The position numbers were made by a program, and so were the translations under genes. Source: Candidatus Aegiribacteria sp. MLS_C (GTDB taxonomy: Bacteria > Fermentibacterota > Fermentibacteria > Fermentibacterales > JCC-6). From it: DNA of 64,000 bases. Positions 26,655-32,060 of this stretch are shown piece after piece. The notes below the pieces were generated by a model. It had not been told where the DNA came from, ran no database searches, and was given only the letters and a program-made list of their open reading frames with translations. Position 1 is the first letter of the stretch, and each line of letters opens with the position of its first letter. Where the stretch lies: the NCBI GenBank assembly GCA_002030045.1, contig LQBI01000007.1, positions 25,443-89,442 of the forward strand, in the 5' to 3' direction.

Positions 26655-26945
26655 ATGTCGAACTCCTGGGATGGTGTCCTGGAGACTGAGGAGTACAGGA
26701 CGACCCTGGCCAGGGCCGAGGCCCTGGCCTCCGACAACTTATGGATACTGAACCCTGACAACGAGCGGGTCGAGAAGGTGGTCGGTCTCATGACAATGAA
26801 CTACACCGGAACCGGCGAGTACTACTGCCCCTGCAAACAGAGCCACCCGCTCGACCCGGAGAGGGACACGGTCTGTCCATGCCCGGAACTCCGCCAGGAG
26901 ATACGCGATACGGGACACTGCTTCTGCCGGCTCTTCTACCGCTGA
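26655..26945 (+). CDS. Ferredoxin-thioredoxin reductase catalytic subunit-like protein
   Basis: A 96-residue protein with three paired cysteine motifs, CPC (58-60), CPC (74-76) and CFC (89-91), in the order and context of FtrB (YYCPCKQSHPL, CPCPEL, GHCFCRLFY). In the family these hold a 4Fe-4S cluster next to a redox-active disulfide that reduces thioredoxin. The plant-type CHC is CFC here and the spacings are shorter, as in FTR-like proteins of anaerobes. No alpha subunit is adjacent. TCGGAGG precedes the ATG. Confidence 0.78.
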   Translation: MSNSWDGVLETEEYRTTLARAEALASDNLWILNPDNERVEKVVGLMTMNYTGTGEYYCPCKQSHPLDPERDTVCPCPELRQEIRDTGHCFCRLFYR

Positions 26946-27070
26946 TGTCCCATTTTCGTGCCGGGCCTGGATAATGGGACATTATCAAATAATCTCAGCC
27001 TCAGATTGGGTTTCTGTCCGTAACTGGTTTTCGATGTCACTTTTTCCAGGCCCGGCACCAGAATGGGACA
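26946..27070 (+). repeat. Palindromic repeat element (copy 1), 25-bp inverted arms
   Basis: Arms at 26946-26970 and 27046-27070 are reverse complements at 23 of 25 positions (TGTCCCATTTTCGTGCCGGG on the left). Each end also carries a smaller palindrome, TGTCCCATT/AATGGGACA (26946-26954 with 26973-26981) and a degraded one at 27035/27062. The same modules recur at 36905-37020. It has no coding capacity and lies between the FTR-like gene and the leader RNA promoter. Confidence 0.7.
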
Positions 27071-27080
27071 TTTTTCAGGG

Positions 27081-27108
27081 TTGTCAATTTATTAGGTGGG
27101 CGTATATT
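27081..27108 (+). promoter_or_regulatory. Strong sigma-70-type promoter for the structured leader RNA
   Basis: TTGTCA (27081-27086), 16 bases, then TATATT (27103-27108). It predicts a transcript start near 27115, right at the first RNA hairpin. The -35 block TTGTCAATT is shared with the promoter at 40761. Confidence 0.65.
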
Positions 27109-27115
27109 CCTTGCC

Positions 27116-27330
27116 GAAGCTGCTGCTTCAAATCCAGCAACTCCAACGCCGATCCTCAGGTCGGCACAGACGAAAGGAGGTACAATGAGCAATTTGCGTA
27201 ACCGGCAGGGGTGTCGGGCTACCTAGCCTCCTTAGCTCTTCACACTACATCTTAGCAGGACGGCAGGGGTAACCGCGCAGCGCCTGAGTCGCGTTGTACC
27301 CAGGGTATGGGTGCCCCTGCCGGTTTCTTA
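27116..27330 (+). ncRNA. Candidate structured leader or small RNA with alternative pairings
   Basis: About 215 nt between a promoter and a terminator-like end. Readable stems: GAAGC/GCTTC at the 5' end; GCCGATC/GGTCGGC with CTCA loop (about 27150-27167); GGTA..CGCG with CGCG..TACC around 27269-27300. CCGGCAGGGG (27202-27211) and CGGCAGGGG (27261-27269) both pair with CCCCTGCCGG (27314-27323), which is followed by TTTCTTATT, so two exclusive folds exist. AAGGAGG (27174-27180) pairs perfectly with CCTCCTT (27227-27233). It does not show the hallmarks of tmRNA, SRP RNA or 6S RNA. It could be an attenuator for the gene at 27412 or an independent sRNA. Confidence 0.55.
27185..27226 (+). CDS. Possible 13-residue leader peptide in the structured RNA
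   Basis: AAAGGAGG is followed five bases later by ATG and a 13-codon frame, MSNLRNRQGCRAT, ending in TAG. It has three arginine codons (CGT, CGG, CGG) although AGG is the usual Arg codon in this genome. The stop is followed immediately by the anti-Shine-Dalgarno CCTCCTT, and the frame covers the first GGCAGGGG arm, so ribosome occupancy would change the fold. Translation is unproven. Confidence 0.35.
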   Translation: MSNLRNRQGCRAT

Positions 27331-27411
27331 TTAAAGGGTTGTATGAGTGTACATAAAGCCTGCATATCGCCCTTCTGACGGGCGGGGCTCGGTGGTCAGC
27401 ATGGAGGGTTT

Positions 27412-30354
27412 ATGGAAGAGATACTTTATCGCGAACTTCGGGATTTGGACATCGACGGGGTCACTCGAATGTGGCGGGAGAGCCTGGATGGCTGGCCGCC
27501 GGGATTCTTCGGCGGGTCCGGAATAACAGCAGAGACTGTGCGCAGGGAGGAGAGGAGTTCGAACAAGCTCTTCACAATCCTCGCGCTGTTCGGCGACAGG
27601 GTCGTGGGATACTGCCTGGTGAGCCCCTACGGCGGTGAGCCGGATGCCTCCTACGTGAACCTGGTAAACGTGGTGCCCGACATGCACGGAAGGGGCATAG
27701 GCAAGGCCCTTCTACTTGACGCTGTGGCTCGATCGTCCGAGCTGGGCCTTTACAGGATTGACCTGCATACCTGGCCGGCCAACATGAAGGCGGTCCCGCT
27801 CTACAAGAAGACCGGTTTCTTCTGGGTACCGGACACCAGCGTTTATATGCAGAACTACATGCCTTTTCTCCTGGGAATGAACGAGTTCAGGGATTTCCTG
27901 GAAGGTGAGGACTGGTACAGTTGCCTGCGCAGGGAGCTTACTGAGGAGCAGGATCGGCAGCGTACCGATTCCGGAAGGGATGTCTTCACCTACTGGTTCA
28001 GGATGGGCGACCGGGAGTTCCTGGCCGAGTTCGACAGGAGCGGCAGGATACTGTCCAGACTGGAGTACCCCGGTTTAAGGGCCTGCATCGAGGTGGACGA
28101 CGGAAGGGACTACTTCGTCGGCCGCCAGTACACCGTGGAAATATCGGGCCATGGTTTCGACACCGCTGGCGTGGAAGTGGAATACAGCCATTCCATACGC
28201 TGCAGCGGGATCCGTGACGGAAGGCTGAACATGGAGCCCCTTGCCGTCAGGGTCGAGAAGAGCCCCTACGAGATCGCTGACAGGCTCAGGGTGGAACTCC
28301 CGGACGGACTTCCCGCGCTGGGTCTGGGAGTATGCGGTTCCGAGGAGGTCAGGCTCGCATCTCCACCGTTCCTCTACCTGGCTCCGGGCAGCAGTGAAGT
28401 ATCCTTCGAACTCAGGAAGCTTTCAGGCAGGACCTCCGTCATCCTCAGCTGGTCGGTGGAGGGAAGGTCCGGGCAGCATGAGCTGGATCTGTCGGCCGAT
28501 ACCTACCAGAGCTTCACTCTACAGCTGCCGGAACTCTGTCGCGGAGTGCACCTGATGACCCTTCGTCTCGGGGAGTCCTCCCATTCGGAGACCGTGGTGC
28601 TGATAGTGGGTTCCCACACCGGTCCTCCCGAAACGGTTGACACCAGGGGCAGCGCCCTGGTCCTGGGAGGGGACATGGTTCTCTCCTTCAACAGGAAGGG
28701 TGGCAGAACCAGTGTCTGGGTACCCGGCGCAGGTGGAAAGCCCGAGAGACTGGGAAGCTTCTTCATCTGTGCCGGTCCACCGGTCTCGTGGAACTCCGAT
28801 CTTCCCCGGCAGACCTATGAGCTAGAACTCGGAGAGGGCCAGGTCACCGGAAGCGCCTCATGGCCCTCAAGACCGGGGATGACTCACTTCGTGAACGTGA
28901 GGCTTGACCGGGAGGGATTCATCGAGACCTGCTCGCGGGTTCACAACGGATCGACGGAGCCCAGGACGGCCATGTTCAGCGCCGACAGCGGCTGGGCAGA
29001 GTGCTTCGAGCCCAGGACGGACCTCCTTCCCATGCCCGACGGGCTGATGGCTGAGCAGAGAGTGTACAATCAGGTGCCCGACTGGGCCGAGGACCTTACA
29101 TCCTCCACTTCCGGACTGGCGGCCCCCTGGACTGGTGTCACCGGGGGGTGCGGTTCGGCCATGAATTACTTCCCCGGCTGGACGGAGCTGGAACACGACA
29201 TGCCCGGCACCGGGCAGGAGACCATCCCTCAGGGGGGATCCCTCGTTTCTCCGCCTTTCATGATACTGTTTTCGAAGGGCGGTGTGAAGCATCTCCTGGC
29301 CAGGGCCGGGAACCTCGGCTGGAAGACCGGCGGATGGGACCGCAGGATACCCTTCTTCCGGCACGATCTCGAGCCGGTCATGGGGTCGGGAGCCGAGTTC
29401 ACGCTGGGCCATCCGCTCCACGGCGGGAGGACCGGATCCCTGGAGATCGACGGTGAGAGGAAAGCCGGCGGCGAGGTAAGGACGGGCCACGGGCTGTCGG
29501 CGAAACTCGAGGGGAAGGGTCGCGTCAGGGTCGGACTCTCGCTGGCCGGAAGGTCCATGGAGTACCCCGTGTTCCTCGTTCAGAAGAATTCCTCGGTTGA
29601 TAGAGCCGGAGAACCCCCGGGCGAGCTGCTGCTGACGAATGACAGGGTCAGGGCGGTCATCGATCCCCGGGCCTGCGGACAGGTCCATTCGCTGGAGATG
29701 GACGGGACCGAGTACCTGTTCTCGTCGCATCCGGTACCCTCGGAGTTCTGCTGGGAGAAACCATGGTTCGGCGGTATCGTACCCAGGGTCTCCGGTACCA
29801 GGGGTCACCCATACCCGCTTCAGGATTCGGTTCCCTTGGTCGAGGAATACACCAGGGAACATGCCGGTCTGAGCGAAAGGGGGTGGAGGATGTCCTGGCG
29901 CATCGACAGGCGGCATTACGGCTCGCTGTCGCTCACCTGGACCGTCAGTCTGTTCCCCTCGGTGCCTCTGCTCAGGACACTGCTTGAACTGGATGCGACG
30001 GCGGGTGCCTTCCATCCAGGCGAGCTTGACTTCCGTGGATTCCTGGCCCCCGGCGGCAGCCGTGACGGTGCACTTCTGACCTGTGACAGTTTTCCCGCCC
30101 TTGTCCAGGGAAGGGACCATGCGGGAGCCTGGACGGACATGGGGAAGTGGGCCCGGGTGGCCAGGGGGAACGCTTTCGTAGAGGGATACTCCCTGGGAGA
30201 AGGCGTCTTCTTCTGTGAGGACTATGGCAGGCATGGATGCCACCTATCCGTGATCGGGACCCACGACAGACCCAGGAGGATGGAGATGCTCTGGCTGTTC
30301 GGTTCAGTGCGGGAGGATGACGATCTGGCCCGGATCGTCAGGGCCCACAGATAG
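27412..30354 (+). CDS. GNAT acetyltransferase fused to a large beta-rich domain
   Basis: A 980-residue cytoplasmic protein. Residues 1-160 are a GNAT fold with acetyl-CoA motif VVPDMHGRGIGKALLLDAV (HGRGIGKA at 92-99). The remaining 800 or so residues have no confident assignment; they contain Ig-like stretches (about 220-420) and a sandwich region (about 430-970) whose layout (GFIETCSRVHNGS; RAVIDPRACGQVHSLEMDG) recalls galactose-mutarotase or glycosidase-like folds. No signal peptide is present. TGGAGGG lies 5 bases before the ATG. The structured RNA is directly upstream and a 12-bp terminator directly downstream, so it is transcribed alone or with the leader. Confidence 0.7.
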   Translation: MEEILYRELRDLDIDGVTRMWRESLDGWPPGFFGGSGITAETVRREERSSNKLFTILALFGDRVVGYCLVSPYGGEPDASYVNLVNVVPDMHGRGIGKALLLDAVARSSELGLYRIDLHTWPANMKAVPLYKKTGFFWVPDTSVYMQNYMPFLLGMNEFRDFLEGEDWYSCLRRELTEEQDRQRTDSGRDVFTYWFRMGDREFLAEFDRSGRILSRLEYPGLRACIEVDDGRDYFVGRQYTVEISGHGFDTAGVEVEYSHSIRCSGIRDGRLNMEPLAVRVEKSPYEIADRLRVELPDGLPALGLGVCGSEEVRLASPPFLYLAPGSSEVSFELRKLSGRTSVILSWSVEGRSGQHELDLSADTYQSFTLQLPELCRGVHLMTLRLGESSHSETVVLIVGSHTGPPETVDTRGSALVLGGDMVLSFNRKGGRTSVWVPGAGGKPERLGSFFICAGPPVSWNSDLPRQTYELELGEGQVTGSASWPSRPGMTHFVNVRLDREGFIETCSRVHNGSTEPRTAMFSADSGWAECFEPRTDLLPMPDGLMAEQRVYNQVPDWAEDLTSSTSGLAAPWTGVTGGCGSAMNYFPGWTELEHDMPGTGQETIPQGGSLVSPPFMILFSKGGVKHLLARAGNLGWKTGGWDRRIPFFRHDLEPVMGSGAEFTLGHPLHGGRTGSLEIDGERKAGGEVRTGHGLSAKLEGKGRVRVGLSLAGRSMEYPVFLVQKNSSVDRAGEPPGELLLTNDRVRAVIDPRACGQVHSLEMDGTEYLFSSHPVPSEFCWEKPWFGGIVPRVSGTRGHPYPLQDSVPLVEEYTREHAGLSERGWRMSWRIDRRHYGSLSLTWTVSLFPSVPLLRTLLELDATAGAFHPGELDFRGFLAPGGSRDGALLTCDSFPALVQGRDHAGAWTDMGKWARVARGNAFVEGYSLGEGVFFCEDYGRHGCHLSVIGTHDRPRRMEMLWLFGSVREDDDLARIVRAHR

Positions 30355-30467: not shown

Positions 30468-31427
30468 CTACGGACAGAACCTGCACGCTGCGAAGCTCCT
30501 GGAATCCTTGGCCTCCCTCCAGCCTGAGGCCCTCCGCCATGCTTCCTCTGAAGGTCTGTCCTCCCTCGGTCCGTCACCTGTCAGGAAAGGGCACGGAAGC
30601 AATGTGCCTCCAGCCGTGAGGAAAACGCAGCCGGCAAGGGGACATCCCCTGGGTTCACGGACGAGTACCGGCCGGCCTTCAGGTGAGAGCGTGTAAGGAG
30701 AGGATGGATGTCCAAGCGCCAGGTTCTCAACCCTGCCGATCGATTGACCCTCCGGATCGTATCGGCCGAAGACGACCTGTCTTCTCTTCCAGCCATTGAG
30801 TACAGCCAGTTCCTCGAATGCTTCTCCATCCCTCTCGGATGATTTCCACAGCGTAAGAACGACCTCCACCATGGCTGGGGAGCGCCTGCGGAGGGTGTCG
30901 ATGGCATCCATTACATCATCGAAGCTGTCTCTGTCCCTCAGCGGCTTCCATGACGCCTCCGTAGCCGCCGGGATCGACACTATCCATCTGTCGACTTTCA
31001 TCCCGGCGATCCCGCCTGTCAATCCCAGACCTATCGTGCTTATGGACGTCATCATGCACCGTTCCGCGGCTGCGGCCACCAGTTCCTGCAGCAGCGGGGA
31101 TGCCAGTGGATCTGAATGTCTTCCCGTGAAATGCACCGTAACAGGTTTCGAAGGAGCCGAATCCAGCCATTCCTCAAGGAGGGTGGGCGCCATTACCGCC
31201 GGTACCTCAGGCCTGACGCAGCCGGTACAATGCCCGGTACAGCCCTGGGTGGGTTCAACCATTATCCCCCTGGGCATGCCTTTCACTCTGCAACCTGTGG
31301 CGGTGATGAGGAGTTTGAGGGGCCAGATCGGTCCCCTCCTCTTCAGGACCGTCAGGGCGGTAGCGGCGGTTCTCAGCATCCTCTGCCTTTCCACGGGGGA
31401 CTTGGTTCGGGAATGTATTGATAACAT
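30468..31427 (-). CDS. Radical SAM protein
   Basis: A 319-residue radical SAM enzyme. The cluster motif CTGHCTGC (Cys63, 67, 70) sits in GIMVEPTQGCTGHCTGC, and the domain continues through a VTVHFTGRHSDPL strand. The C-terminus has extra cysteines (GCPLAGCVFLTAGG, LLPCPF, AACRFCP) like an auxiliary SPASM-type cluster domain. ATG 31427 was chosen (AGGGAAC upstream); ATG 31457 is possible but has no ribosome site. No peptide substrate or partner gene is visible nearby, so the reaction is unknown. Confidence 0.75.
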   Translation of the reverse strand: MLSIHSRTKSPVERQRMLRTAATALTVLKRRGPIWPLKLLITATGCRVKGMPRGIMVEPTQGCTGHCTGCVRPEVPAVMAPTLLEEWLDSAPSKPVTVHFTGRHSDPLASPLLQELVAAAAERCMMTSISTIGLGLTGGIAGMKVDRWIVSIPAATEASWKPLRDRDSFDDVMDAIDTLRRRSPAMVEVVLTLWKSSERDGEAFEELAVLNGWKRRQVVFGRYDPEGQSIGRVENLALGHPSSPYTLSPEGRPVLVREPRGCPLAGCVFLTAGGTLLPCPFLTGDGPREDRPSEEAWRRASGWREAKDSRSFAACRFCP

Positions 31428-31509
31428 GCCTCTGGTTCCCTGAACAGTAGCTTCCATTCGCTCAGGAAGGCTTATACGTTTCGCATCACTTGCATGGAGG
31501 GGAGTCGTT

Positions 31510-32060
31510 GTGGCTGGATGCAAGTGGATGATCCTCGCGCCTCTGTTCCTGGTTATCATCACCGCCTGCGGAGATGGCGGGGATGCCGAACTGTCGGCGT
31601 CCCCAGCTTCCGAGGATATCAGGATCCCCTTGATCGTGGATCCCATCGGTTTCGCCCTCCTCGGCGACGGCGGGATATGCGTCATCGATCCCTGGAGGGG
31701 CGGATTCCTCACCTGGAACGCCGACCATTCGTCCCAGGTCTCGGGGTTGAGTGCACAGACAACACCCCTGCTCTCTGCCGGGGACTTGACGATTCCGGGT
31801 TCGTCGCCGGACAGGCGGGTTACGTGAACGTCTACGGGGTCATCAGGGCGCATGTCCGAATGCTCAGGTACGATCTTCGGCGGGAACCTTCGCATGTCTG
31901 CATTGAGACAGGTGAAATCATCATACCAGATGGTTCAGAAGCCGCCCGCCTTCCCGTCCGGTTCCACCACCGGCAGTCCAGTCTCGCCTCGTTCCAGCTG
32001 GGTGCTGTCCTGCCATTGCCAAGGAAGACTACCCTGAGGAAGTTCCGTATCGTCCTGTAG
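31510..32060 (+). pseudogene. Decayed lipoprotein gene (propeller-like)
   Basis: A good ribosome site (GGAGGGGAG) precedes GTG 31510, giving a lipoprotein signal with lipobox VIITACG and then a region resembling a six-bladed propeller start (GFALLGDGGICVIDPW). The frame is lost near 31790; coding-like sequence resumes in another frame (DDSGFVAGQAGYVNVYGV) up to 32060, and a third frame also has short coding-like pieces. At least one frameshift is needed to join them. Confidence 0.5.

Follow-up and report, generated by a model that had tools for sequence, protein, structure and literature searches.

The GNAT-fusion gene of this uncultured Fermentibacterota bacterium is preceded by a real and evolutionarily conserved leader RNA (positions 27109–27332 of the window, the whole 64,000-nt stretch of DNA that was analysed) whose fold is wrapped around a tiny protein-coding stretch, and which is probably an on/off switch for the gene. 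The reading we favour, with a probability of roughly 0.5, is that of a cis-acting, translation-gated transcription attenuator. From the features computed here, namely a conserved promoter, a leader open reading frame (ORF), stems P1–P4, complementarity for a loop-loop contact and for Shine-Dalgarno (SD):anti-SD pairing, a U-rich tail and association with a single gene clade (Table 1), we infer termination at the tail, control by a ribosome, the direction of that control and the role of a signal. RNA started from the promoter at 27081 would fold during its synthesis, with hairpin HP2 and the leader SD docking onto a four-way junction through an HP2–P3 kissing contact and through SD:anti-SD pairing. 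P1, whose 5' arm corresponds to leader-ORF codons 6–10, would then close the junction just before the U-rich tail, and transcription would stop (OFF). A ribosome on the leader ORF, occupying or stalled near its RQGCR end, would cover this 5' arm, and with P1 blocked the polymerase would read into the GNAT-fusion gene (ON). The inducing signal could be a stall caused by the nascent peptide or by a drug, or else a ligand of the folded RNA.

Table 1. Features of the leader RNA and the gene downstream, in window coordinates
Feature	Positions	Strand	Evidence
Sigma-70-like promoter TTGTCA-N16-TATATT	27081–27108	+	10/12 matches
HP1, 5' hairpin GAAGC-UGCU-GCUUC	27116–27129	+	sequence
HP2, hairpin GCCGAU-CCUCAG-GUCGGC	27148–27165	+	96.6% of cells paired
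SD of leader ORF, AAAGGAGG, perfect	27173–27180	+	sequence
Leader ORF MSNLRNRQGCRAT*, 13 codons	27185–27226	+	start, SD and stop in 16/16
P1 5' arm (copy 1), inside leader ORF	27200–27212	+	P1 95.6% of cells paired, 4 two-sided pairs
P2 arm, holding leader stop, anti-SD and copy 2	27213–27276	+	90–92% of cells paired, 2 two-sided pairs
Anti-SD CCUCCUU, complementary to leader SD	27227–27233	+	rank 2/17,497
Copy 2, CGGCAGGGGU, 3' strand of P2, optional partner of 3' segment	27261–27270	+	pairing with 3' segment not conserved
P3 hairpin, conserved GAG in loop (UGAG 27285–27288)	27277–27297	+	4 two-sided pairs
P4 hairpin ACCCA...UGGGU	27298–27312	+	98.7% of cells paired, CG/UA exchanges
P1 3' arm (copy 3)	27313–27325	+	pairs with 27200–27212
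U-rich tail after P1	27324–27332	+	sequence; enriched in homologues
GNAT acetyltransferase fused to ~800 residues of beta-rich domains	27412–30354	+	PF00583, residues 45–136

Evidence for the fold comes from an alignment of fifteen leaders, in which RNAalifold and the structure named here agree on a four-way junction, P1–P4, with zero unpaired nucleotides at the junction itself and 94.7% of cells paired overall. Two-sided changes fall in 12 pairs (37 cells), against 1–4 pairs and 1–5 cells with slid partners; none of 500 column shuffles reached the observed count. In P1, specifically, A-U is exchanged for G-C in five sequences, G-C for A-U in four and G-C for C-G in one. HP1 is retained with an altered stem sequence in most homologues, as judged by eye, and the CUCA of the HP2 loop (27155–27158) is invariant in 15/15 homologues.

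A preliminary description, made from the letters alone, had proposed that the GNAT gene is preceded by a structured cis-regulatory RNA with a promoter leading into it, and had held that a lack of compensatory changes in homologues would speak against it; such changes are found, and they support the proposal. The consensus-like promoter, the two 5' hairpins, the repeated segment with its complementary 3' segment and the U-rich end to which it had pointed are likewise all present. The 9-mer CGGCAGGGGT occurs at 27203 and at 27261, and AACCGGCAGGGG (27200–27211) is perfectly complementary to CCCCTGCCGGTT (27314–27325). This arrangement exceeds chance: of 2000 dinucleotide shuffles made from the same 250 nt, 2 had a perfect 12-nt inverted repeat and 1 had a duplicated 9-mer followed downstream by its complement. 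Minimum free energy folding, which the description had suggested as a check, gave −84 kcal/mol for the leader RNA (z = −2.4). What it had missed is that copy 1 pairs with the 3' segment as P1, the closing stem of a four-way junction without gaps, and that copy 1 lies within a short SD-led ORF.

This ORF (DNA ATGAGCAATTTGCGTAACCGGCAGGGGTGTCGGGCTACCTAG, 27185–27226), which contains copy 1 of CGGCAGGGG, starts 4 nt after AAAGGAGG in the window, and the SD spacing is 4–8 nt in all 16 homologues. RQGCR is kept in 15 of the 16 leader peptides, the codons for Arg, Cys and Ala varying at their third positions. Only when read in frame 0 are codon differences conservative (mean BLOSUM 0.68; the other two frames give −0.44 and −0.96), a conservatism equalled by 16 of 500 column shuffles. 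A short ORF with its own SD, as predicted here, is what a leader-peptide attenuator calls for, and with the 5' arm of P1 lying inside it the position of a ribosome would, in the modelled structure, set the fold. Two observations on the peptide count against the attenuator reading. No run of regulatory codons was found in the leader peptides of the 16 homologues, and in one of them (G029) RQGCR is lost while P1 is kept by a compensatory change. Since the peptide motif was given up and the stem restored, the stem appears to be under stronger constraint than the peptide in G029, where the peptide sequence may not matter.

According to the preliminary description, the two copies compete for one segment. 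Its first half has held up, in that the 3' segment co-varies with copy 1, but copy 2 mostly does not follow, and belongs to P2. The copy2:copy3 helix has 86% of its cells paired with only 2 two-sided cells, and some homologues are unable to form it, including G029, in which copy 1, unlike copy 2, changed along with the 3' arm. Copy 1/copy 2 competition was rejected as a switch for lack of conservation. With copy2:copy3 as the pairing followed across the homologues, no clear antiterminator exclusive with the terminator is conserved, which counts against the attenuator reading. In unconstrained folding, copy1:copy3 (that is, P1) has a probability of at least 0.8 in 12 of 15 leaders and copy2:copy3 one of at most 0.09; when a mask the size of a ribosome covers the last part of the leader ORF, which excludes P1 in every homologue by construction, copy2:copy3 reaches at least 0.6 in 6 of 15. 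Gating by translation is favoured because P1 forms in most leaders without the mask and is lost under it, with copy2:copy3 forming in some of them. In the window under the mask, copy 2 can pair with the same 3' segment adjoining the same U-rich tail, and this masked form may itself still terminate.

Beyond the junction, 17,497 pairs of unpaired four-column windows were ranked for extra pairing. The first place went to a kiss between the HP2 and P3 loops (CUCA:UGAG, 95% Watson-Crick), which in the window amounts to 6 bp (CUCAGG 27155–27160 with CCUGAG 27283–27288), and the next to leader SD:anti-SD (85% Watson-Crick, 96.7% counting G-U), CCTCCTT standing directly 3' of the leader stop codon. 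In the folded RNA, both contacts would be expected to hide the region of the leader SD. Against the kiss, its pairs hardly vary, showing complementarity and no covariation, and an A-C mismatch occurs in 3 of 15 leaders. A resemblance to 16S h45 and its anti-SD (GUAACCG..AGGGG..CCUCCUU, noted by eye) was dropped as not conserved in the Sabulitectum sequences.

Such an architecture raises the tentative but serious possibility of a novel RNA class that senses a ligand or a nascent peptide, a pseudoknotted four-way junction folded around its own leader ORF, in which leader translation and the terminator fold would be mutually exclusive and which would control an acetyltransferase-fusion enzyme. 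That the RNA is a ligand-binding riboswitch is possible but doubtful; the pseudoknotted junction would then be a metabolite or ion aptamer whose ligand sets both P1/terminator formation and access to the leader SD, with the leader ORF in the expression platform. As predicted from sequence, the fold is conserved, aptamer-like and covarying, as a riboswitch should be, and its compactness, invariant loop positions and gap-free junction, the two long-range contacts of tertiary type and the single gene target all agree with this. However, a pure aptamer would have no need of the conserved ORF frame and RQGCR, the RNA is confined to one gene clade in one bacterial family, and the gene context points to no ligand. 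Nor is there an Rfam match. In Rfam 15, the leader RNA and its homologues gave zero family matches at the gathering score, and the leader RNA gave nothing relevant up to E 5, in line with the initial impression that no common bacterial RNA was matched.

Initiation and termination bear on the level at which control would be exerted. TTGNNN/TATATT-like hexamers 16–18 nt apart precede HP1 in 16/16 homologues, with 8–10 of 12 matches; the hexamers chosen automatically in G022 and in some g3 genomes are probably off register. No comparable promoter was found in the spacer between P1 and the gene in 14 of 15 leaders, and no site there is consistently conserved. The 8 nt after P1 hold a mean of 5.0 U in the homologues, where 2.85 would be expected from spacers. 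Three points count against attenuation here: the tails are weak in G020, G026 and G030; a simple terminator scan gave no hit, because the stem encloses a multibranch loop instead of forming a short hairpin; and P1, enclosing a loop of ~100–160 nt, is not a standard short terminator hairpin. A classic intrinsic terminator is seen only in the diverged G019 (L040:1150-1501), from another genus, while elsewhere the P1 stem is followed by the U-rich tail. In G019 a diverged and possibly homologous leader ORF, VIKRNLIRRGPAIS*, precedes a GNAT-fusion gene belonging to a clade without the leader RNA, and a textbook terminator (GCCGACC-N8-GGGUCGGC-AUUUUU) lies upstream of that gene.

Control purely at the level of translation, with no termination, is unlikely. 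In this scheme the anti-SD would toggle between the leader SD and the GNAT SD, or else leader translation would re-initiate at the GNAT start or unfold the RNA towards it. The conserved anti-SD right after the leader stop and the weak U tails of some homologues would suit such control, but P1 lies well before the GNAT start, the spacer is variable in length and sequence, inspection by eye showed no conserved pairing with the GNAT SD, and the U enrichment of the tail would be left unexplained. Translation-gated attenuation, in turn, is supported by the leader ORF in 16/16 homologues, the covariation of P1–P4, the two top-ranked contacts and the enriched U tail, as well as by the combination of diverged leader ORF and textbook terminator before the GNAT gene of G019, and by a spacer devoid of a consistently conserved promoter.

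DNA, protein and covariance searches (36 genomes of the family, 42 of the phylum) located the leader RNA in 16 Fermentibacteraceae genomes, with one further remnant, in the genera Aegiribacteria and Sabulitectum. Each genome has one copy, directly 5' of the GNAT-fusion gene, and none was found beyond Fermentibacteraceae. A pattern of ~18 specified bases run on an 84,980-species collection returned only Fermentibacteraceae and two other matches (Bacteroidales, Micromonospora), both of which the covariance model rejected, and viral contigs contained none; a tRNA search was run as a check that the genomes were searchable. In a tree built from the GNAT part, genes preceded by the leader RNA make up a single group (93/97), and a paralogue group without it follows a prs-like gene (an assignment made by eye from the flanks) in many genomes. 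The GNAT-fusion gene is broken early in G024 (L063, G024:C71), where leader RNA and leader ORF are intact, and is gone from G021, where only a remnant of the RNA persists, its P1 destroyed. The attenuator reading gains support because the RNA marks one gene clade and has decayed with loss of the gene in G021.

Its intact state in G024, together with its own promoter and U-rich end, could also indicate a separate small RNA, perhaps of dual function with a micropeptide, that merely adjoins the GNAT gene. This is improbable, however, as the RNA occurs away from the gene only as a remnant, decayed where the gene was lost, and otherwise once per genome beside the same gene clade, and as the GNAT gene would be left with no consistent promoter. 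Functionless hairpins, arising by chance or from the dispersed palindromic repeat just upstream (26945–27071), are already refuted by the covariation, with compensatory changes set against slide controls, and the leader RNA itself is single copy in the 2.98-Mb genome.

The product of the GNAT-fusion gene has 980 aa. No Pfam match was obtained in the ~800 residues after the GNAT domain, which are modelled as beta-sandwich domains (mean pLDDT 81), and a fold search of the fusion returned only generic beta-sandwich and LacZ-like matches of low TM. The minus strand at 30468–31895 encodes a radical SAM protein, convergent with the GNAT gene and with weak similarity to maturases of tungsten-cofactor oxidoreductases (TIGR04317, below cut-off). 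Just upstream of the locus, 26655–26945 encodes a 96-aa ferredoxin-thioredoxin reductase beta-chain-like protein (PF02943, E 1e-11). The palindromic repeat that follows it is REP/BIME-like, consists of two inverted ~38-nt copies (ATGTCCCATTTTCGTGCCGGGCC...TGGGACAT), and recurs at about ten further places in the genome and upstream of the leader RNA in G003.

With leader-peptide transcription attenuators, of the trp/his type and of the drug-stall type (e.g. yxjB of B. subtilis, PMC6851288), the leader RNA shares its promoter, a short ORF with a strong SD, the overlap of this ORF with an arm of the stem that leads up to a U-rich tract, and a single downstream target. Unlike these, it has neither a regulatory codon run nor a conserved antiterminator, and the junction closed by its putative terminator arm is four-way and includes a loop-loop contact. 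The ilvB-II motif of Corynebacterium, a conserved uORF/structured-RNA attenuator that emerged from a comparative search (PMC10272879), likewise joins a conserved structured RNA to a uORF before one gene. Gene, phylum, structure and peptide, however, are all different here. A leader ORF, SD1:anti-SD pairing and a downstream acetyltransferase gene are also features of the aac/aad integron leader. The latter has been described as an 'aminoglycoside riboswitch' (PMC7588185), a description disputed in PMC9410878. No similar structure or sequence was found between the two, and in the present case the surroundings are chromosomal genes, among which no integron context was seen, and the GNAT domain is fused to beta-rich domains. 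Lastly, the copy 2 region GGGGUAACCGCG superficially resembles the AGGGUGGNACCGCG of T-box leaders. The T-box idea, which came from AACCGCG, was rejected, as UGGN is absent and the region is part of P2; Rfam gave no T-box match for the leader RNA at E up to 5, and none for the homologues.

A limited literature search found no riboswitch paper for the phylum Fermentibacterota. The leader RNA is a covariation-supported cis-regulatory RNA, absent from Rfam, from an uncultured phylum, and combines an aptamer-like fold and a conserved micro-ORF. If confirmed, it would offer an example, open to experiment, in which translation gates a complex RNA fold, as well as a first hint at the cue to which the GNAT fusion responds.
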